From positions 1-64,000 of the forward strand of contig NZ_JACXAJ010000004.1 of assembly GCF_014773225.1 (NCBI RefSeq): a stretch of DNA of 64,000 nt, read 5' to 3'. Positions 2,937 to 51,432 of the stretch are shown here, in pieces. The stretch comes from Pontibacter aquaedesilientis. Its GTDB lineage: Bacteria; Bacteroidota; Bacteroidia; Cytophagales; Hymenobacteraceae. Made by a program: the position numbers and the translations under genes. Positions within the stretch are counted from its first letter, which is position 1. Every line of letters starts with the position of its first letter. Under the pieces are notes generated by a model, which was not told where the DNA came from, made no database searches, and saw only the letters and a program-made list of their open reading frames with translations.

Positions 2937-3152
2937 ATGAAAACAATATCAAGTATGGCTTTCTTGCTGTTTAGCTTATTGATTTTCATAGCCTACTTTG
3001 GGTTGCTGTATGAGAAAATAGTTATGCCTCAGTTTAAAAACATGGGAACAGCAGGCTTTTTCTTCTGGGGCTTTTTTGTAGCTATTTTGCTTGCCCTTGA
3101 TGTTCTCATCGTTCGACAGTTTATCAAAAGGTTTAGAAATAAGAAAGAATAA
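2937..3152 (+). CDS. Cassette 4b: small two-helix membrane protein, 71 aa
   Basis: Two clear hydrophobic segments at about residues 7-27 and 40-62, with a basic C-terminus (RQFIKRFRNKKE) that should face the cytoplasm. It begins 4 nt after the stop of the preceding gene, so the two are probably co-transcribed and translationally coupled. Two-gene cassettes are less common than single-gene ones and often hold functional pairs; whether these two interact is unknown. Confidence 0.65.
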   Translation: MKTISSMAFLLFSLLIFIAYFGLLYEKIVMPQFKNMGTAGFFFWGFFVAILLALDVLIVRQFIKRFRNKKE

Positions 3153-3156
3153 CTTC

Positions 3157-3224
3157 TGGCAACAAGGTTCATAATTTAGGCTGCGGCTTCGCCTTGCCCA
3201 CATTATGCACGAGTAACGTTATGT
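3157..3224 (+). repeat. attC-like site 5
   Basis: Ends are TGGCAAC (3157-3163) and GTTATGT (3218-3224). The inner arm GGTTCATAAT pairs with ATTATGCACG as in site 2, with a different loop (CTGCGGCTTCGCCTTG). Confidence 0.8.
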
Positions 3225-3250
3225 GCAATAGAAGATTATAGATTGATGAC

Positions 3251-3565
3251 ATGGGACATAAGAAAGTATGTTTTAATTGCAGAAAGGCATTCAGCATCTA
3301 TAAGAATCCTTCAGATGAAATAAACCTTACATGTCCAGAATGCGGGAGTCTTACAACGTTGATTAATCACAAGTTTCGGCCACCAAAGAGTAGTGACATC
3401 AAGAAATGGAAAGTGGCTGAGTTTCTCAAGAACAATGGTTGCTTCTTTCATCATGTTTATGAAAAGCTTGAAGATGGGGGTTATGTGGTTGTACCTTATC
3501 CAGAAACTATGACAGAAGCGGTAGAATTTGTAAGAAAGTATAAGCAGAACACAAGCCCATACTAA
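3251..3565 (+). CDS. Cassette 5: zinc-ribbon protein, 104 aa
   Basis: Two CxxC knuckles, CFNC (residues 7-10) and CPEC (28-31), give a treble-clef or zinc-ribbon type metal site at the N-terminus. The remainder (KWKVAEFLKNNGCFFHHVYEKL...GGYVVVPYPETMTEAVEFVRKY) is a small alpha/beta region seen in other short proteins of unknown role. The start at 3251 follows the attC end by 26 nt. Nucleic-acid or protein binding is a plausible role for such a ribbon but is only inferred. Between 3566 and 3684 I see no gene. Confidence 0.7.
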   Translation: MGHKKVCFNCRKAFSIYKNPSDEINLTCPECGSLTTLINHKFRPPKSSDIKKWKVAEFLKNNGCFFHHVYEKLEDGGYVVVPYPETMTEAVEFVRKYKQNTSPY

Positions 3566-3684
3566 TGTATTTAGATTAACACGCTCTGAAAAAGCATCAT
3601 TATGATATAGAAAGGCTAAATGGATGTACCAGCTTACTTTTCCTCATATGGTATGCTTTAAATAAGTTGAAGTAAAACTAATAC

Positions 3685-3752
3685 ACATAACCCAGCCTAT
3701 AAGTTATGCTTCGGCTAAGCCTCGCACACCTTATCAGGCCAATCCGTTACCT
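3685..3752 (+). repeat. attC-like site 6
   Basis: Ends are ACATAAC (3685-3691) and GTTACCT (3746-3752). Inner arm GCCTATAAG (3695-3703) faces CTTATCAGGC (3730-3739); they pair fully if one C in the right arm is left unpaired, like the extrahelical bases known in attC sites. Confidence 0.82.
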
Positions 3753-3768
3753 GTCATAGAAATCATAA

Positions 3769-4227
3769 ATGAAAAATAGACTTCTGTTCCTGAACTTAAT
3801 ATTTATACTTGCATTAGCAGCATCGTGTGGACGGGAAGTCAAAGAAGATATTGCTGTCAAGGAGAGAATCGGAGAAATAGCAGAAAAAGTGCTTGTGGGT
3901 TCTACAGCCATACCTTTCAGCTTAGACAGTCTAACAAGCTATACTTGGGAAGAAGTTTATATCATTACTCCCTATACCCAGATTGACAGGGTGAAGCACA
4001 TTACCAGAGCAGACTTAAGTACAATAGAAGAAACAGGGATAGAATATGATGACGGAAAAAAAGTAATCGCCTTTATCAACAATGGGAAATTGACAAGCTA
4101 TGTGGATTTGCCAAGGGGCAGTGGTGACTTTGCTTACCTTCAAGATTCTATATTGCTGTATCCTTTTGGATCCGCTGAATTTAGAATGGTTAACAAGAAT
4201 GGTAGAGCAGTTGTAGAGAAAAATTAA
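3769..4227 (+). CDS. Cassette 6: lipoprotein, 152 aa
   Basis: The signal sequence ends in the lipobox ALAASC (Cys near residue 20), so the product is a probable lipoprotein. The mature part contains SLTSYTWEEVYIITPYT near residues 54-70, then mixed alpha/beta sequence and a basic tail. I do not recognise the family. It is the second lipoprotein in this array, which suggests that secreted or surface proteins are a regular cargo here. The start at 3769 is 16 nt past the attC end. Confidence 0.7.
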   Translation: MKNRLLFLNLIFILALAASCGREVKEDIAVKERIGEIAEKVLVGSTAIPFSLDSLTSYTWEEVYIITPYTQIDRVKHITRADLSTIEETGIEYDDGKKVIAFINNGKLTSYVDLPRGSGDFAYLQDSILLYPFGSAEFRMVNKNGRAVVEKN

Positions 4228-4237
4228 AAACTAAGTC

Positions 4238-4304
4238 AGGTAACACAGCACAGGCATCATGTTCGGCTAATGCCTCACCCATTGCCTGTCCGAGACCGTT
4301 AGAA
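4238..4304 (+). repeat. attC-like site 7
   Basis: Ends are AGGTAAC (4238-4244) and GTTAGAA (4298-4304). The inner arm CAGGCA (4251-4256) is complementary to TGCCTG (4283-4288). Confidence 0.8.
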
Positions 4305-4329
4305 AATATTTAATATAAAATCCTGTTTT

Positions 4330-4352
4330 AAAGTTACCATTATGGTAACTTT
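4330..4352. promoter_or_regulatory. Palindromic operator upstream of higBA
   Basis: AAAGTTACCAT (4330-4340) and ATGGTAACTTT (4342-4352) form an 11+1+11 perfect palindrome. It lies just upstream of the -7 box at 4359, covering where the -33 element would be. It is the likely site where the HigA antitoxin or the HigBA complex represses its own promoter. Confidence 0.72.
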
Positions 4353-4358
4353 TTTCTT

Positions 4359-4366
4359 TATATTTG
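4359..4366 (+). promoter_or_regulatory. Bacteroidota -7 promoter box for higBA
   Basis: TATATTTG matches TAnnTTTG exactly. The GTG start of higB is 18 nt downstream, so the leader would be very short. It shows that this cassette carries its own promoter. Confidence 0.65.
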
Positions 4367-4383
4367 AGTTCTAAAATAAAGAA

Positions 4384-4677
4384 GTGAGAGTAATAGCAAA
4401 ACGGACACTGCGGGATTTTTGGGAAAAACATGCTGATAGTGAGCAACAGCTAAAAGCTTGGTATAATGAGGCCGAGCAGGCGAATTGGACCTCCCCGAAT
4501 GACATAAAGAAAGACTACCCTTCAGCTAGCCTACTGGAGGACAACAGAATGGTCTTCAACATCAAAGGGAATAATTATAGATTAATCGTCAAAATCAACT
4601 ACAAGTATGGTATTGTTTGGATACGGTTCATTGGAACGCATGCTGAATATGACAAGGTTGACGCAACTAAAGTTTAA
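4384..4677 (+). CDS. higB: Cassette 7: HigB-type mRNA interferase toxin
   Basis: 97 aa, the usual length of type II HigB toxins (RelE superfamily), which cut mRNA on the ribosome. Typical blocks are present: an N-terminal basic helix (RVIAKRTLRDFWEKH), the WxxPNDIKKDYPSASLL segment, and the C-terminal strand pair with NYRLIVKINYKYGIVWIRFIGTHAEYD. The start codon is GTG at 4384; no ATG lies nearby. The antitoxin follows 10 nt after the stop, giving the toxin-first order characteristic of higBA. The frame is intact, so the pair is probably functional and may stabilise the cassette array. Confidence 0.88.
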   Translation: MRVIAKRTLRDFWEKHADSEQQLKAWYNEAEQANWTSPNDIKKDYPSASLLEDNRMVFNIKGNNYRLIVKINYKYGIVWIRFIGTHAEYDKVDATKV

Positions 4678-4687
4678 AGAATAAGAA

Positions 4688-5044
4688 ATGAATATCAAGT
4701 TAATAAAAACAGAAGAAGATTATCAATTGGCCCTGCAAAGGCTGGAGGAAATATTCGACGCGGAACCAGACACCCAAGACGGCGATGAACTGGAGGTGCT
4801 TTCGTTCCTGATTGACTCCTATGAAAAGGAACATTTCCCGATTGAAGCACCAGACCCGATTGAAGCGGTAAAATTTAGAATGGAGCAACTCGGAATTAAG
4901 CAGAAGGATTTAGCCCAAGTGCTGGGTTTCAAGAGTCGAGTAAGTGAGGTATTGAACAGGAAAAGAAAGCTCACGCTGGAAATGATAAGGAGTCTGCATA
5001 AGACCTTGAATATCCCGACAAACGTGCTTATTCAGGAGTACTAA
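4688..5044 (+). CDS. higA: Cassette 7: HigA-type antitoxin (XRE helix-turn-helix)
   Basis: 118 aa. The N-terminal half is acidic. The C-terminal half holds an XRE-family helix-turn-helix (about residues 66-110: QLGIKQKDLAQVLGF...VSEVLNRKRKLTLEMIRSLH). HigA proteins bind and neutralise HigB and repress the operon; the perfect palindrome at 4330-4352 is the obvious target. It is co-transcribed with higB. Length and order match the family. Confidence 0.88.
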   Translation: MNIKLIKTEEDYQLALQRLEEIFDAEPDTQDGDELEVLSFLIDSYEKEHFPIEAPDPIEAVKFRMEQLGIKQKDLAQVLGFKSRVSEVLNRKRKLTLEMIRSLHKTLNIPTNVLIQEY

Positions 5045-5057
5045 AAGTAAAACAATT

Positions 5058-5121
5058 TTCTAACACTGTATATACAAAATCCTTGCTCCGCTGCGGGTAA
5101 TGTATATACTAACCGTTGTAC
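5058..5121 (+). repeat. attC-like site 8
   Basis: Ends are TTCTAAC (5058-5064) and GTTGTAC (5115-5121). The inner arms are GTATATAC (5068-5075) and GTATATAC (5102-5109), complementary because the word is itself palindromic. Confidence 0.78.
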
Positions 5122-5143
5122 TTCATAGAAATTAATAGAAAGT

Positions 5144-5533
5144 ATGGTAGATGAGAAAACAAGTATAACTTCAATGCTGGCTCTCTTTCCCGCTTTCAAA
5201 AGTCAGTATGAAGAACATGTTAAATTCTGGAAAGGGGAAAACCCTTTTGGAATGGACATGGCTGAATTTTCCCATTTTGCCCTTGATATCATAGCAAAAG
5301 GCACAGATGAAGAGATTGAAAAGCTCGTGAATTTTGCTGAACAAATGATAACAGAAGGGAATGACGATGTAAATTATGCCATCAAATTCTTCTTCTTGGA
5401 AAATATTACGAACAGAAGCGGAGACAGGAGAATACCGCTGGCCAGATTTATAAATAGACTTAAACCCAAGTCTTATGAGTTCTGCCGAGAACTGGACAAG
5501 TTCTGGGGCACTAAAACGGAAGGAATAGATTAA
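5144..5533 (+). CDS. Cassette 8: hypothetical protein, 129 aa
   Basis: Acidic, probably helical, cytoplasmic protein without signal peptide. The layout (LFPAFKSQYEEHVKFWKGENPFGMDMAEFSHFALDII...GNDDVNYAIKFFFLENITNRS) resembles short helical proteins found next to toxins or in cassettes, but I cannot assign a family. The start at 5144 lies 23 nt after the attC end and the next site begins 10 nt after the stop, so it fills the cassette alone. Confidence 0.68.
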   Translation: MVDEKTSITSMLALFPAFKSQYEEHVKFWKGENPFGMDMAEFSHFALDIIAKGTDEEIEKLVNFAEQMITEGNDDVNYAIKFFFLENITNRSGDRRIPLARFINRLKPKSYEFCRELDKFWGTKTEGID

Positions 5534-5542
5534 AACTACGAA

Positions 5543-5606
5543 GTACAACACAATGCTTAAGTTACCTCGCTGACGCTTCGGCATCTTAAGCACGCGGCCG
5601 TTGGCA
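5543..5606 (+). repeat. attC-like site 9
   Basis: Ends are GTACAAC (5543-5549) and GTTGGCA (5600-5606). The inner arm TGCTTAAG (5554-5561) is a perfect complement of CTTAAGCA (5585-5592). Confidence 0.8.
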
Positions 5607-5667
5607 CGTATAAAAGTTAAAAAGGATAAAAATTGAATTTATTCGTATATTTTCAAAAAGTTTAGAT

Positions 5668-5907
5668 ATGGCAGCTATAAAGGAAGATTTGCATAAACTG
5701 ATTGATACAACTACTGATGAAAAATTATTAGAAGACATCTTCATGATTCTATCCAGTAGAAGAAATTACAAAGAAGGAAGCCTTTGGACCAGCTTAACAG
5801 AAGCACAGAAACAGGAAGTTTTAGCAAGTGAGAGCGAAATTGGTAACAAATCCGCCTGGATATCTCAGGAAGAGATGAAAAGAAGAAGCTCTAAATGGCT
5901 CAGATAG
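5668..5907 (+). CDS. Cassette 9: antitoxin-like protein, 79 aa
   Basis: Small charged protein with the shape of ParD/RelB-type antitoxins that accompany RelE/ParE toxins: an N-terminal helix (KEDLHKLIDTTTDEKLLEDIFMIL), then a toxin-binding tail with WISQEEMKRR. The downstream toxin reading frame (5895) overlaps its last 13 nt, the usual coupling for such pairs. The antitoxin frame is intact while the toxin is interrupted, so the gene may survive only as a solitary antitoxin. Confidence 0.72.
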   Translation: MAAIKEDLHKLIDTTTDEKLLEDIFMILSSRRNYKEGSLWTSLTEAQKQEVLASESEIGNKSAWISQEEMKRRSSKWLR

Positions 5908-6188
5908 TCTGGAATAAGCGGGCAAGCAAACAATTAGCTGACTTACAAGACTATCTGCAGCAGGAATTTGGAGAAAAAGCAGCGCAAACATTTACATACA
6001 GAATATTCCAGTTTTTAGAACTACTCGTTAAGTACCCTCAAATAGGAACACTGGAAAGCCCTTAAAAAGATATTAGAGGGTTTTTGCTGCACAGACACAC
6101 TACAATTCTTTATAATCAGAAAGAACAAACTATCTACATTCTCGCTTTATTCGATAACAGGCAAAATCCTCAGAAGAAGACAGTCTGA
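5895..6188 (+). pseudogene. Cassette 9: RelE/ParE-family toxin interrupted by an in-frame stop
   Basis: From ATG 5895 the frame reads MAQIVWNKRASKQLADLQDY..., a typical RelE/ParE start, and runs 56 codons to TAA at 6063-6065. The same frame continues without further stops to TGA at 6186-6188 and encodes the expected C-terminal half (KDIRGFLLHRHTTILYN...IYILALFDNRQNP). The full length of 97 codons fits the family. A single base change to a stop codon therefore removes the C-terminal strands that carry most active-site residues in this superfamily. Recoding or a sequencing error are alternatives, but a nonsense mutation is simplest. Confidence 0.82.
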
Positions 6189-45434: not shown

Positions 45435-46346
45435 ATGTCCGACAAAAAATCAGTACCAGCACGCAAAGGTGGCCTCGGCAGAGGCCTGGGCTCTCTTTTG
45501 GAGGGTAACAAGTACACCGGTAAAACTGAGTCTTCCACACTTAACGAAGTCAATACCATCGCAGATATAGCCATTGACCACATCCAGACGAACCCCTACC
45601 AGCCGCGTACGCACTTTGACCAGACGGCGCTGGAGGAACTGGCTGAGTCTATCCGCATACAGGGCATCATACAGCCTATTACCGTTCGTCAGCTCGACCA
45701 GCACACTTACCAGCTGATATCGGGTGAGCGCCGTTACCAGGCCGCCAAAATGGCCGGTCTGACGACCATACCTGCCTACATACGCAAGGCCGACGACCAG
45801 CAAATGCTGGAGATGGCCCTGATCGAGAACATTCAGCGCGAAAACCTGAATGCGATCGAAATTGCCCTCTCCTACCAGCGTTTGCTCACAGAGTGTAGCC
45901 TGAAGCAGGAGGAACTGGGCGACCGCGTGGGCAAGAAGCGTACGACGGTAACCAATTACCTGCGCCTGCTCAAATTGCCGCCCGATATCCAGATCGCCCT
46001 GCGCGACAACGTGATCAGCATGGGCCATGCCCGCGCACTTATCAACATCGACACGATCGAGAAGCAGCTGGAGATCTTTAAGAAGGTAGTGGCAGAGGAA
46101 CTGTCGGTGCGCAAGGTAGAGGAACTGGTTCGCAATGTGCAGAATGCCGGCAAAAAGCCAGATCCGCAACAAAAACTGGTGTTCAACAAGTATGATGAAG
46201 AATTGAAGGGTGTCGAGACGCGCTTGTCATCCCAGTTCGGCACCAAGATTATGGTAAAGGCCAACAACGACGGCAAGGGTGAGATCAAGATTCCGTTTGT
46301 GTCGGTGGAGGAACTGAACCGTATACTGGAAATACTTAACTACTAA
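45435..46346 (+). CDS. parB: Chromosome-partitioning protein ParB
   Basis: 303 aa. N-terminal KGGLGRGLGSLLEG (ParA-stimulating peptide), CTP-binding domain with NPYQPRTHFD, SIRIQGIIQPITVR and SGERRYQAAKMAG (about 96-109), helix-turn-helix LKQEELGDRVGKKRTTVTNYLRLLKL, and a C-terminal dimer domain. It binds parS and loads SMC. I found no convincing parS in the window. Confidence 0.95.
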   Translation: MSDKKSVPARKGGLGRGLGSLLEGNKYTGKTESSTLNEVNTIADIAIDHIQTNPYQPRTHFDQTALEELAESIRIQGIIQPITVRQLDQHTYQLISGERRYQAAKMAGLTTIPAYIRKADDQQMLEMALIENIQRENLNAIEIALSYQRLLTECSLKQEELGDRVGKKRTTVTNYLRLLKLPPDIQIALRDNVISMGHARALINIDTIEKQLEIFKKVVAEELSVRKVEELVRNVQNAGKKPDPQQKLVFNKYDEELKGVETRLSSQFGTKIMVKANNDGKGEIKIPFVSVEELNRILEILNY

Positions 46347-48858: not shown

Positions 48859-48890
48859 AAACCGCCAGTTCTGAGAGGAGCTGGCGGTTT
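48859..48890 (+). terminator. Rho-independent terminator of the parA-lepB operon
   Basis: AAACCGCCAG (48859-48868) pairs with CTGGCGGTTT (48881-48890) and is followed by TTTTG. It marks the left boundary of the AT-rich insert. Confidence 0.88.
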
Positions 48891-48929: not shown

Positions 48930-48937
48930 TATATTTG
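48930..48937 (+). promoter_or_regulatory. -7 promoter box of the ParB-like/Mrr-like module
   Basis: TATATTTG matches TAnnTTTG, 138 nt before the first gene, leaving a long leader that contains the hairpin at 48993-49023. No -33 TTTG at 19-21 bp was seen. Confidence 0.5.
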
Positions 48938-48992
48938 GTATAATGTATGGCGATTTTTATCTTGGTGAATAAAGTTCAATTCAATGCATAGT

Positions 48993-49023
48993 GCATATAG
49001 CTGGAATAATAATTCCTATATGC
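48993..49023. promoter_or_regulatory. Inverted repeat in the leader of the ParB-like gene
   Basis: GCATATA (48993-48999) pairs with TATATGC (49017-49023); inside it GGAAT (49003-49007) pairs with ATTCC (49012-49016), leaving GCT as a bulge. It could be the binding site of the ParB-like protein, or an RNA hairpin. Confidence 0.4.
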
Positions 49024-49074
49024 GAATTGCTAGCAGAAACCTTAACAGGATATTTAAAACATAGAAATTAAAAT

Positions 49075-50178
49075 ATGAAATTAGAAAAAGTAACAGTCGC
49101 AATTGAAAATTTATTACTTGACCCAAATAATCCAAGATTTGCAGATATTTCAGATGACGTTTTAAATATTGACAAATCAAGGTTCGCCGAGCCTACAATT
49201 CAGGCAGCTGCTTACGAAAAAATGACAAATCCAAAGTTTGACGTTATAACTCTAGCAAACTCAATTGCGACAGTTGGTTTTGTCCCCGTTGACAATATCG
49301 TGGTTGGCAAACTAAACGATAATCAATATTATGTAATCGAGGGTAATAGAAGAACAACTGCAATTAAATACTTGCTAAAACAACATTCTTTAGGTCAAAC
49401 AACCTTAAGCAATGACAAAATTGAAAAATTAAAAACGGTAGATATTTTAGTTGTAGATGATTCCGAAAATGCGACAGAATATGTCGGTATGATAATACAA
49501 GGTATTAGAAATGTTAGTGGCATTAAAGAATGGGATGCTTTTCAAAAAGCCCAATTTATCAATGATATGATTGACAAAGGAAAACAACCTGGCGAAATTT
49601 CAAGAACTATCGGAATGTCTGTAAAAGAAATAAACAGATACTACAAAACTTACAGCGTTATGTTGCAATTCAGAACTGACGAAGAATATGCTGGAAAATG
49701 GAAACCAAGTTATTTTAGTCACTTTGATGAAGTTCTTAAAAAACCTGCTCTAAGGACATTTTTTGATTTCAACGATGAAACTTTCAGATTTGATAATATT
49801 ACTAATCTTAAAAGGTTCTACGAATGGATTGTGCCTGACGAAGAAGGTAAAGCAACAATAAGCGACGCTCATAATGTTAGGCGGTTATCAGAATTAATTC
49901 ATGATAAAACAGCATTAAACTATCTTGATGACAGAAATTTAGATAAAGCAGTTAATTATATAAATCAAAAATATTTTAATCAAAATAAAATAACAGCTTC
50001 TGAATGCCTGAACAAAATAAATTCAGCTATTAGTGCATTTAAAAACATACTTGCGGAAGGCTTGGAGAAAGAACTAAGTGAAGAGGAATTTAGTGAGCTG
50101 AAAGCAGGTATAGAGAGTATGAATGAGAACTATAAAAGGGTTGAAACTTTAAAAAATAATGGACATAAATCTGTTTGA
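49075..50178 (+). CDS. ParB/sulfiredoxin-fold protein, 367 aa (defence-module candidate)
   Basis: The N-terminal domain (about 1-130) has ParB/Srx features: LLLDPNNPRF (13-22), DVITLANSIATVGFVPVDNIVV (56-77), and YVIEGNRRTTAIKYLL (86-101), the equivalent of ParB GERR. A helix-turn-helix-like part follows (about 157-196: FQKAQFINDMIDKGKQPGEISRTIG...INRYYKTY). The C-terminal half is helical and unassigned. Codon use is strongly AT-rich against the flanking genes, a sign of transfer. It overlaps the next gene by 20 nt. It may act as a DNA-binding or nucleotide-hydrolysing partner of the downstream endonuclease. Confidence 0.78.
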   Translation: MKLEKVTVAIENLLLDPNNPRFADISDDVLNIDKSRFAEPTIQAAAYEKMTNPKFDVITLANSIATVGFVPVDNIVVGKLNDNQYYVIEGNRRTTAIKYLLKQHSLGQTTLSNDKIEKLKTVDILVVDDSENATEYVGMIIQGIRNVSGIKEWDAFQKAQFINDMIDKGKQPGEISRTIGMSVKEINRYYKTYSVMLQFRTDEEYAGKWKPSYFSHFDEVLKKPALRTFFDFNDETFRFDNITNLKRFYEWIVPDEEGKATISDAHNVRRLSELIHDKTALNYLDDRNLDKAVNYINQKYFNQNKITASECLNKINSAISAFKNILAEGLEKELSEEEFSELKAGIESMNENYKRVETLKNNGHKSV

Positions 50179-50881
50179 AATAATGTTCAGATGTAAAAGG
50201 CATACAAAAGTGAACACTGAACAATGCCTAACAGAATATTACAAGACAAAAGGATTTAATATTTTCAAATCTGCTGAATACGCGCAGAGTAACATTTTAA
50301 ATTTTGTTGAATTTGCAAACCGTAACATTCTAGAGGCCAAAAAAAGTAACACATCTTTTTTGTTTTCAAACGTTACAAAAGACATTGTTGAAGTTAATAC
50401 CGAATATTACATAATAAAAGAAATTCATAAAAAGTTATTAGCGATGGAATGGAGAGATTTTGAATTTCTCTCATCGACAATCTTAGAATTTTGTTTTGGT
50501 GCATTTGACGTTAAAACAAGTCAAGCTTCTTCTGATGGTGGTGTAGATTTTGAAGGAAAATTACCAGTTTATTCAACATTAGCGAAAGACTTGTACGGTA
50601 TAATTGAAGTTTACGGACAATCAAAAAAATATACTGGTAATGTCGGTATTTATGACATTAAATCTTTTGTAGCTTTTGCAAATAGCAAAAAGAGAAATTA
50701 TGTTCACCCTGCTCAACTATTTATGTATTTCACTACATCTGATTTTGCAAATAACTCAGTAAAGGAATTAGCTGAAAATGGTTTTATCGGACTTTCTGGT
50801 TTTCAACTTGCGACACTAATCTATAAACACAAACAAATATTAACTGACAAATCAGAAATAATAAATGAAATAATTAATTAA
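50159..50881 (+). CDS. Mrr-like restriction endonuclease fold protein, 240 aa
   Basis: Residues about 97-172 match the Mrr-type PD-(D/E)XK core: WRDFEFLSSTILEFCFGAFDV, then SSDGGVDFEG with Asp 130, then IIEVYGQSKKYTGNVGIYDIKSFVAF, where Gln 154-x-Lys 156 takes the place of the (E/Q)xK pair. The N-terminal 95 residues are unassigned and may form a recognition region; YVHPAQLFMYFTTSDFANNSVKELAENGFIGLSG follows the core as in Mrr-type enzymes. It starts inside the ParB-like gene, so the two are translated together. Cleavage of modified or foreign DNA is inferred. Confidence 0.78.
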   Translation: MDINLFEIMFRCKRHTKVNTEQCLTEYYKTKGFNIFKSAEYAQSNILNFVEFANRNILEAKKSNTSFLFSNVTKDIVEVNTEYYIIKEIHKKLLAMEWRDFEFLSSTILEFCFGAFDVKTSQASSDGGVDFEGKLPVYSTLAKDLYGIIEVYGQSKKYTGNVGIYDIKSFVAFANSKKRNYVHPAQLFMYFTTSDFANNSVKELAENGFIGLSGFQLATLIYKHKQILTDKSEIINEIIN

Positions 50882-50905
50882 AAAAATGCTGATAACACAT
50901 TTTTT
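50881..50905 (+). terminator. Weak terminator after the Mrr-like gene
   Basis: AAAAAATG (50881-50888) pairs with CATTTTTT (50898-50905). AT-only stem, so moderate confidence. The rest of the gap to 51066 shows no gene. Confidence 0.5.
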
Positions 50906-51066
50906 GCGTCAGTCCGACAAAGTAAAGTAATTTCCTTCGTTGGCGCTGCAAAAGGCCAAAAGTATTAGGCCGAACGCAAAGCCTGAATACCGTCATATCT
51001 CTATTCATACTACATCCATTAAATTAATAATAATTTTCTTTTCTCCAAGCAACTACTACACCAGCC

Positions 51067-51432
51067 ATGATCACCACCCCCGAGCACAACGAAAGAATAG
51101 CGAAAATGACTTTTGCGTCGGTGTATCCGCACTATCTGGCAAAAGTTGAGAAGAAAGGCCGAACAAAAGAAGAACTGCACCAGGTAATCACGTGGCTGAC
51201 CGGTTTTGACGAAAAGCAACTGCAGGGACTGATGGACGAGAAAGCATCATTCTCCGACTTTTTTTCAAAAGCAAATGTAAATCCGAATGCTCATCTCATA
51301 ACGGGGGTTATATGTGGCTATCGTATTGAGGAAATCGAAAACCCCTTGACGAAACAGGTGAGGTATTTGGACAAACTGGTGGATGAATTGGCAAAAGGAA
51401 AGAAGATGGAGAAAATTCTAAGATCGGTTTAA
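51067..51432 (+). CDS. DUF2200 domain protein
   Basis: 121 aa, entirely within the DUF2200 family pattern: HNERIAKMTFASVYPHYLAKVEKKGRTKEELHQVITWLTGFDE (about 7-49), FFSKANVNPNAHLITGVICGYRIEEIENPLTKQVRYLDKLVDELAKGK (about 66-113). Small soluble protein of unknown function, widespread in bacteria. It lies just right of the AT-rich insert and has normal base composition for the chromosome. Confidence 0.88.
   Translation: MITTPEHNERIAKMTFASVYPHYLAKVEKKGRTKEELHQVITWLTGFDEKQLQGLMDEKASFSDFFSKANVNPNAHLITGVICGYRIEEIENPLTKQVRYLDKLVDELAKGKKMEKILRSV

Follow-up and report, generated by a model that had tools for sequence, protein, structure and literature searches.

In a 64,000-nucleotide stretch of the Pontibacter aquaedesilientis genome (NCBI RefSeq contig NZ_JACXAJ010000004.1, positions 1 to 64,000; hereafter the window), an open reading frame (ORF) encoding a ParB-fold protein, ORF1, is followed directly by one encoding a predicted PD-(D/E)XK nuclease, ORF2. 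The pair is real, mobile and conserved, and we take it to be a new variant of restriction in which the nuclease has a ParB partner. We consider it probable that the pair carries out ParB-directed restriction in one form or another, and with less assurance we lean towards a form that does not rely on a protecting methyltransferase encoded elsewhere in the genome. The computed support comes from predicted folds, conserved active-site residues, linkage of the two genes, their mobility and an association with DNA methyltransferases; from these we infer the defence function, the loading of a clamp, contact between ORF1 and ORF2, the identity of the nucleoside triphosphate (NTP) and the sparing of the host's own DNA. 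DNA segregation is the main setting in which ParB-type CTPase clamps are known, according to the available portion of a survey of ParB-fold proteins (PMC12704722), and a conserved ParB-nuclease pair, usually joined by a methyltransferase, would, if our reading is true, give such a clamp a role in restriction. It would also give a function to the genes annotated as ParB N-terminal domain in P2-like prophages. The features discussed below are these:

49075..50178, plus strand: ORF1, ParB-fold protein of 367 amino acids (aa), with an N-terminal ParB/Srx domain, a helix-turn-helix (HTH) DNA-binding domain and a C-terminal helical region
49339..49353, plus strand: EGNRR (residues 89-93 of ORF1), Box II/GxxR motif with Asn in place of the Glu of canonical GERR; invariant in a 38-row alignment
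49528..49914, plus strand: HTH DNA-binding domain, about residues 152-280 of ORF1, matched to the DNA-binding domains of Noc and KorB
50159..50881, plus strand: ORF2, Mrr-type PD-(D/E)XK nuclease of 240 aa, whose first 84 or so residues are mostly helical
50408..50872, plus strand: PD-(D/E)XK cleavage domain, about residues 84-238 of ORF2, with MspJI and AspBHI as structural matches
50462..50464, plus strand: Glu102 of ORF2, predicted active-site residue in the first core helix (putative role), invariant in six QxK-branch nucleases
50546..50548, plus strand: Asp130 of ORF2, predicted catalytic Asp of DGGxD, invariant in a 26-row alignment
50618..50626, plus strand: Gln154-Ser155-Lys156 (QxK) of ORF2; Q154 invariant in 26 rows, K156 in six QxK-branch rows
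49009..51047, no strand: acquired stretch; conservation with the nearest same-genus flanks ends about here
48859..48890, plus strand: lepB terminator-like hairpin with a T run after it, lying upstream of the insert

The two genes travel together and belong to a widespread family of such pairs. ParB relatives of ORF1 were found in 12 of 395 genomes of the phylum, at three loci from a separate search of genome contigs, one of them only a fragment, in seven plasmid records, six of which were fetched, and in 11 phage records, four of which were fetched, with L019 repeating L018 (loci carry our own L numbers); viral contigs gave four loci and then 141 relatives from 175 stretches, 80 of which were kept. 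The resulting 108 loci, window included, hold 113 ParB-family ORFs, five of them at a contig edge, and a nuclease-family ORF comes directly after the ParB ORF, at -116 to +36 nucleotides (nt), in 99 of the 108 cases with room downstream. The figure without seed pairs is 82 of 91 ParB-family ORFs, since the nuclease profile was seeded with 17 neighbours that are paired by construction, and because near-identical phage contigs inflate raw counts the fairer figures come from clustering at 80% identity, in which 59 of 68 clusters with room downstream (71 clusters in all) are paired. A sequence-only reading of this DNA had proposed conserved adjacency as a check on the pair, and by these counts the homologues are tightly linked. 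The pairing is also more than chance because full-length ParB relatives in two other Bacteroidota assemblies, at 55-56% identity, each precede a nuclease that aligns with ORF2. We define the pair family as an EGNRR ParB followed by a nuclease with an invariant Asp and Gln, and the window pair belongs to it. Loci that came later (L231 and L247-L250) are paired as well, and tblastn searches with the ParBs of L070 (plasmids and phages) and L028 (plasmids) returned only records already met; in the viral scans query A2 found no relative, and A4 and A6 only contigs already known. A tblastn search of plasmids with ORF2 gave three Pseudochrobactrum records.

Inside the ParB-chosen loci, one of 100 nuclease matches stands alone, and it is the latter half of a broken gene, in L033. 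This rarity holds only inside such loci, because the nuclease profile matched 75 of the 395 phylum genomes, strongly only in G000 (1.1e-108) and G065 (2.5e-72), and the other 73, which match part of the profile at E 1.1e-12 or weaker and which we take as generic Mrr-type nucleases, lie outside the neighbour survey. The nine unpaired ParB ORFs are spread over L023 (three), L024 (two) and L025, L030, L035 and L207 (one each). A methyltransferase lies 54 nt downstream of the one in L030, that of L035 is a second, 495-aa ParB, and in L207 the nuclease profile missed the next ORF, which by eye has a similar layout and precedes a D12-like gene. Both L023 (3791-7049), with three divergent ParB-like genes, and L024 (4941-8936), with two, are plasmids of Alphaproteobacteria, and these genes adjoin a small gene and genes for a DEAD/DEAH helicase and an ATP-binding protein; L025 (2590-10984), on an Agrobacterium Ti plasmid, has a ParB-like gene and a DEAD/DEAH helicase that adjoin dndBCDE.

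A DNA methyltransferase lies within 1.5 kilobases (kb) in 48 of the 59 paired clusters and within 100 nt in 45 of those 48, convergent or upstream, and because a methyltransferase adjoins the pair in most relatives, which are largely prophage-borne, the family resembles restriction-modification with ParB as the recognition subunit. It is for the same reason that we refine the sequence-only reading, which had called the pair a plausible anti-phage or anti-plasmid module, towards restriction. Methyltransferase type was assigned by best seed, with seeds that annotation or motif had picked out in the same loci (the N4 type, in L200, by motif only); Pfam confirms the C5 type in L018 (9.9e-62) and the D12 N6 type in L198 (2.6e-13), and in PADLOC the enzymes of phages Wphi and vB_EcoM-12474III match Druantia-type and type II cytosine methylases. 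Types are clustered on the ParB tree (two changes for D12 against 11.3 in shuffles, seven for C5 against 24.0), as one would expect of a ParB and a methyltransferase that read a common site, but inheritance as a cassette would give this too. Among clusters with the nuclease type other than QxK, 48 of 53 have a methyltransferase within 1.5 kb, and it is also adjacent in L247 and L249, two of the later pairs of this type.

ParB-nuclease-methyltransferase triples occur in L018, L021 and viral loci L131-L209, many of them in P2-like prophages, with methyltransferases of C5, D12 and, by motif, N4 type, and they look like an undescribed restriction-modification class. The P2-like cassettes gp98-gp96-mth of Wphi and gp04-gp05-gp06 of 12474III (unnamed) combine the same EGNRR ParB family with a following nuclease that has the same Asp and Gln; they differ from the window pair in having an adjacent C5 methyltransferase and a QC...W..K nuclease motif instead of QxK, and their proteins are annotated as hypothetical or as ParB N-terminal domain. 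In phage 12474III the triple sits between genes Q and A, and the A side is found in Wphi as well. The available part of PMC9122126 describes the Q-A interval of P2-like phages as a hotspot of antiphage systems, and the words ParB, methylase and methyltransferase are absent from its main text. The Wphi region has a match in 140 of 5,426 complete E. coli genomes, and in 103 genomes at least 80% of the triple is present.

The nuclease identity of ORF2 is predicted with confidence. Its AlphaFold2 model, built on a 26-row alignment (predicted local distance difference test score, pLDDT, 91.6; predicted template modelling score, pTM, 0.85), has a PD-(D/E)XK fold with a Mrr-like D...QxK active site, and Pfam Mrr_cat (PF04471) matches at 33.4 bits, over a cut-off of 21, which bears out the nuclease proposed from the letters. 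The best solved-structure matches fall within residues 83-238 and include MspJI (Z 13.7, 144 residues, 3.0 A; Foldseek E 5.3e-9), AF1548 (Z 13.2, 117 residues, 2.3 A) and AspBHI (Z 12.4, 139 residues, 3.0 A), EndoMS-type nucleases also match at Z 8.7-8.9, and in a viral model library restriction endonucleases prevail among the best named matches. D130 and Q154 are unchanged across 26 aligned nucleases, as are E102, D130, Q154 and K156 across six of ORF2's own branch, and an hhalign comparison of the two nuclease types aligns their motif core (E 2.1e-5, probability 77%). A sequence search of solved structures with ORF2 gave no match up to E 5. MspJI has the active site D...QxK, and MspJI and AspBHI are single-chain enzymes with an SRA-like recognition domain. 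ORF2 shares their cleavage-domain fold, and the likely recognition part here is, unlike theirs, a separate ParB protein.

For ORF1, Pfam ParB_N (PF02195) scores 15.8 bits, under its cut-off of 26.3, and the predicted fold (pLDDT 88, pTM 0.70) nonetheless matches ParB. The N-terminal domain aligns with a CTPgammaS-bound ParB (Z 10.5, 94 residues, 2.2 A) and the model with KorB (Z 11.1, 199 residues, 5.0 A), KorB and Noc covering more of ORF1 than ParB-CTPgammaS does, and residues 152-280 match the DNA-binding domains of Noc (6y93, Z 6.5) and KorB (1r71, Z 6.2) with modest scores. A ParB fold with an HTH-like region, also part of the sequence-only reading, agrees with solved ParB, KorB and Noc structures, and the ORF coordinates, the 20-nt overlap of ORF1 and ORF2, D130 and Q154-S-K156 are all where that reading had placed them; the EGNRR that it noted is at residues 89-93. 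The Box II GxxR signature of the ParB-CTPase fold, as defined in the available portion of PMC12704722, is present as G90-N-R-R93 and is invariant across the 38 rows. On this model NTP binding by ORF1 is plausible and NTP hydrolysis uncertain, and a ParB-type sliding clamp is a candidate property suggested by the fold. A canonical ParB of the ParABS kind was rejected as the identity of ORF1, which has GNRR rather than GERR and, in neighbours inspected by eye, no adjacent parA. Also rejected was the sole match below 0.001 in a sequence search of solved structures, the 'CAP REPEAT' of 8vd6 (E 1.2e-5, residues 161-188), which had no stretch passing alone and was judged spurious.

The pair sits in DNA that appears to have been acquired. 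The GC content is 31.8% in ORF1, 29.3% in ORF2 and about 31% in the insert, against 50.1% in the whole window, and at third codon positions (GC3) it is 24% and 22% in the two genes, against 63-69% in parB, dapB and lepB of the window, whose overall GC is 52-53%; only 2 of 622 sliding 1.8-kb stretches of the window are equally AT-rich, as the sequence-only reading would have it. The direct neighbours of the pair are lepB and a hypothetical gene, and the lepB flank was matched in 60 of 60 genomes of the family. Fourteen same-genus loci were fetched and aligned to the window, and intervals were listed for 11. Conservation with the nearest relative, L084, stops at 49008 and resumes at 51067 (identity 83% upstream, 80% downstream), and that with the second-nearest, L085, stops at 48942 and resumes at 51048 (83% and 74%); by eye, the interval holds a 157-aa lipoprotein-like gene instead of the pair in L084, and transposase and recombinase genes instead in L085. 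The pair was not seen, again by eye, in any of the 11 listed intervals of the 14. From these comparisons the site after lepB appears variable and the pair looks like cargo, and because the site holds other cargo in the nearest relatives, horizontal acquisition is supported, which accords with the transferred look noted earlier. The post-lepB interval varies in L084, L085, L087, L090, L093 and L096, where we see lipoprotein, transposase and glycosyltransferase-like genes by eye. A repeat search recognised no target-site duplication at the insert borders.

The window's own branch is marked by the QxK nuclease (QSK, QAK, QCK or QVK), which is common to the window, L002, L003, L028, L070, L071 and L231. 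The seed search found a methyltransferase within 1.5 kb in none of its seven complete pairs, and neither seeds (E 1e-3) nor motifs turned up a methyltransferase in window ORFs of at least 100 aa. On the ParB tree the QxK pairs, together with seven fusions of PDC-M38A type (see below), lie opposite the methyltransferase-bearing pairs with support 100/100; a single clade of QxK ParBs is neither shown nor rejected (approximately unbiased test, p-AU 0.31). By eye, L231 lies among the capsid and tape-measure genes of a prophage, L070 between recombinase genes, and L003 upstream of a recombinase-like gene, with a type I restriction gene (PADLOC) 4.3 kb downstream; these contexts, and that of L028, fit defence.

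We propose that the system works as follows. ORF1, through its ParB-like and HTH parts, would recognise a DNA site or a DNA state and bind NTP in the EGNRR pocket, its loading on DNA would position and activate ORF2, and ORF2, as an enzyme of Mrr/MspJI type, would cleave phage or plasmid DNA that enters the cell. For the majority branch we think it most likely that the neighbouring methyltransferase shields the host's sites, as it would in restriction-modification. Protection in the window branch must come about otherwise, because its complete pairs have no methyltransferase neighbour, and this branch most likely cuts DNA with foreign modification or else spares the host in another way, for example by absence of the site. 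Our first choice is modification-dependent cleavage, because of the MspJI/AspBHI-like domain and the missing methyltransferase, and by analogy with those enzymes we tentatively propose that the window pair cuts in a modification-dependent (type IV-like) manner, a possibility that we hold well short of even confidence. More speculative still is a new restriction architecture, in which an NTP-gated ParB clamp would recognise the target and deliver a separate PD-(D/E)XK nuclease, with three branches: one with interchangeable C5, N6 and N4 methyltransferases, forming a ParB-dependent restriction-modification class in P2-like prophages; that of the window, without methyltransferase, cutting modified DNA; and one in which an ATPase-fused ParB is joined by a DUF3226 protein that replaces the nuclease (PDC-M38).

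A number of observations weigh against ParB-directed restriction as set out here. The Glu of GERR is kept in the window's chromosomal ParB and is fixed as Asn in the ORF1 family, and 17 of 28 tested proteins showed no NTP binding in the available portion of the ParB-fold survey (PMC12704722). Likeness of the ORF2 fold to MspJI does not prove modification dependence. Thirteen ParB-ATPase fusions that came later, outside the 108, lack this nuclease, and in one of them, L246, there is a methyltransferase match some 0.3 kb upstream. The contrast between 0 of 7 QxK pairs and 48 of 53 clusters of the other type gives p 2e-6 by Fisher's test, but the seven QxK pairs are one deep branch and not seven independent events. 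The flanks of L002 are only 757 and 841 nt, in L028 a C5 methyltransferase lies 2.1 kb downstream, on the far side of an AAA_21 ATPase gene (Pfam), and L072, with a QxK-branch ParB and its nuclease side off the contig, has a DPPY-motif gene, D12-like by eye, about 1.1 kb upstream. On the majority side, five of the 53 non-QxK clusters are without a methyltransferase within 1.5 kb (L022, L026, L073 and two in L020), as are, in the adjacent position, two of the four later pairs of this type (L248 and L250); the contig of L073 ends 40 nt after the pair, and a C5-motif gene lies about 2 kb upstream of one of the L020 pairs. The host's distant methyltransferases could protect host sites, or could clash with an enzyme dependent on 5-methylcytosine (5mC). 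Finally, a literature search, with subscription papers and supplements outside its scope, found no description of the pair or of any tested member.

The alternative that survives best, although we think it unlikely, is abortive infection or a toxin-antitoxin arrangement, whereby ORF1 would restrain the nuclease and free it upon phage infection, so that the cell dies. The tight overlapping two-gene layout is compatible with it, and PD-lambda-5, to which we return below, is called RM+Abi-like (restriction-modification plus abortive infection) by its authors in the available part of PMC9519451. In the screen of the same source, however, direct immunity came from 7 of the 11 systems that had components for binding or cleaving DNA, and the presence of a neighbouring methyltransferase in most of the family speaks for restriction. 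We regard as similarly improbable an ordinary methylation-sensitive restriction system, in which ORF1 would supply specificity, ORF2 would cut unmethylated sites and the protecting methyltransferase would be encoded elsewhere in the genome. Such a system would suit the 48 of 59 paired clusters with an adjacent methyltransferase, and elsewhere in the host genome there is a single match to each of C5, D12 and N6/N4, these being the three Pfam families searched; but no complete pair of the seven in the window's branch has a methyltransferase within 1.5 kb, none was found by seeds or motifs in the window ORFs of at least 100 aa, and nothing links the target of the distant enzymes to ORF1. That the pair is an accessory to the partition or replication of a mobile element, with ORF1 as an orphan ParB and the nuclease as passenger, is very improbable: ORF1 is indeed a ParB-fold protein with an HTH, and the available part of PMC9122126, which does not show the genes concerned, puts a putative partitioning system in about a quarter of P2-like phages, but there is no parA beside the pair (by eye), the motif is EGNRR and not GERR, the nuclease residues are invariant and methyltransferases are associated. 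Just as improbable is a role of the mobile cargo in DNA repair or recombination unrelated to defence, for although AF1548 and EndoMS-type nucleases are among the structural matches of ORF2, restriction enzymes are the other best matches, the distribution is sporadic (12 of 395 phylum genomes) and the locations are prophages and hotspots.

ParB-directed restriction, our preferred reading, has relatives among known and candidate systems, and none accounts for the pair. No PADLOC system covers it, in line with the earlier statement that no described system is known to have this pairing, and the available portion of PMC12704722 lists ParB-fold fusions with HNH and methyltransferase domains, with the pair not among them. 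The strongest ORF1 match is to PDC-M38, where it aligns with the first half of profile PDLC04607 at 1.6e-50, and the ParB parts fall in the same deep branch. PDC-M38A of that profile is a ParB fused to an AAA/OLD-type ATPase, with PDC-M38B (DUF3226) as partner, as checked in L240, whose proteins are confirmed as PDC-M38A and PDC-M38B/DUF3226; the window is without both, and membership was rejected because, of the 715 positions in the profile, ORF1 matches only 9-358, and ORF2 gives no match to M38B. ParBs fused to an AAA/OLD-type ATPase occur in L233-L241, L243-L246 and L029, at 730-762 aa in 13 viral loci, and in 12 of the 13 an ORF of 188-298 aa follows, L241 ending at a contig edge. PD-lambda-5 has a ParB N-terminal region in common with ORF1 (best 2.7e-22 over residues 26-164), and relatives of PD-Lambda-5_A differ in their C-terminal half, with frames of 456-517 aa that match nearly the whole 440-position profile. 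It protects E. coli and includes a methyltransferase, according to the available part of PMC9519451. Membership was rejected here too, with a best match to positions 10-161 of 466 and no methyltransferase found among window ORFs of at least 100 aa. PDC-S02 is a separate candidate entry of about 324 aa in PADLOC, and ORF2 matches only the C-terminal half of its profile, weakly, through the nuclease domain (1.3e-9).

SspE couples a ParB/Srx-fold NTPase module to a nuclease. So does GmrSD, with an HNH nuclease that is unlike ORF2 (available part of PMC12839542). The sequence-only reading had compared the pair with GmrSD/DUF262, and what stands of this is a ParB-fold module working with a nuclease; it is an analogy only, because the GmrSD nuclease is HNH, whereas ORF2 is Mrr_cat, and the GmrSD_N match is 13.3 bits against a cut-off of 33.2, and GmrSD membership was rejected. 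Chains of GmrSD and SspE are not in the structural match rows (VIA-align), which is no evidence of absence. With none of the homologues' linkage, the predicted nuclease fold or the search for a named system turning against it, the sequence-only interpretation is supported, and we infer an anti-phage or anti-plasmid function.

A few further features of the locus deserve mention. The hairpin and T run at 48859-48890 provide the terminator that had been placed before the pair, although it is absent from the output of the terminator scan. A TAnnTTTG element at 48930, which we take to be a Bacteroidota-type -7 box, lies inside the conserved flank and is a candidate promoter element for the pair; a sigma-70 promoter scan gave 10 sites against 9.7 expected. 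A search of the host genome for ParBs of ORF1 type gave one match. The chromosomal ParB, with canonical GERR, is encoded at 45435-46346, about 2.7 kb upstream of ORF1, so that a ParB-like cargo gene stands near the host's own parB. In another Bacteroidota assembly, L004 8001-8153 is a fragment 67% identical to ORF1 residues 135-186 and possibly a decayed copy. A second AT-rich stretch, of 37.5-39.5% GC, lies near the window start at 3001-6000.

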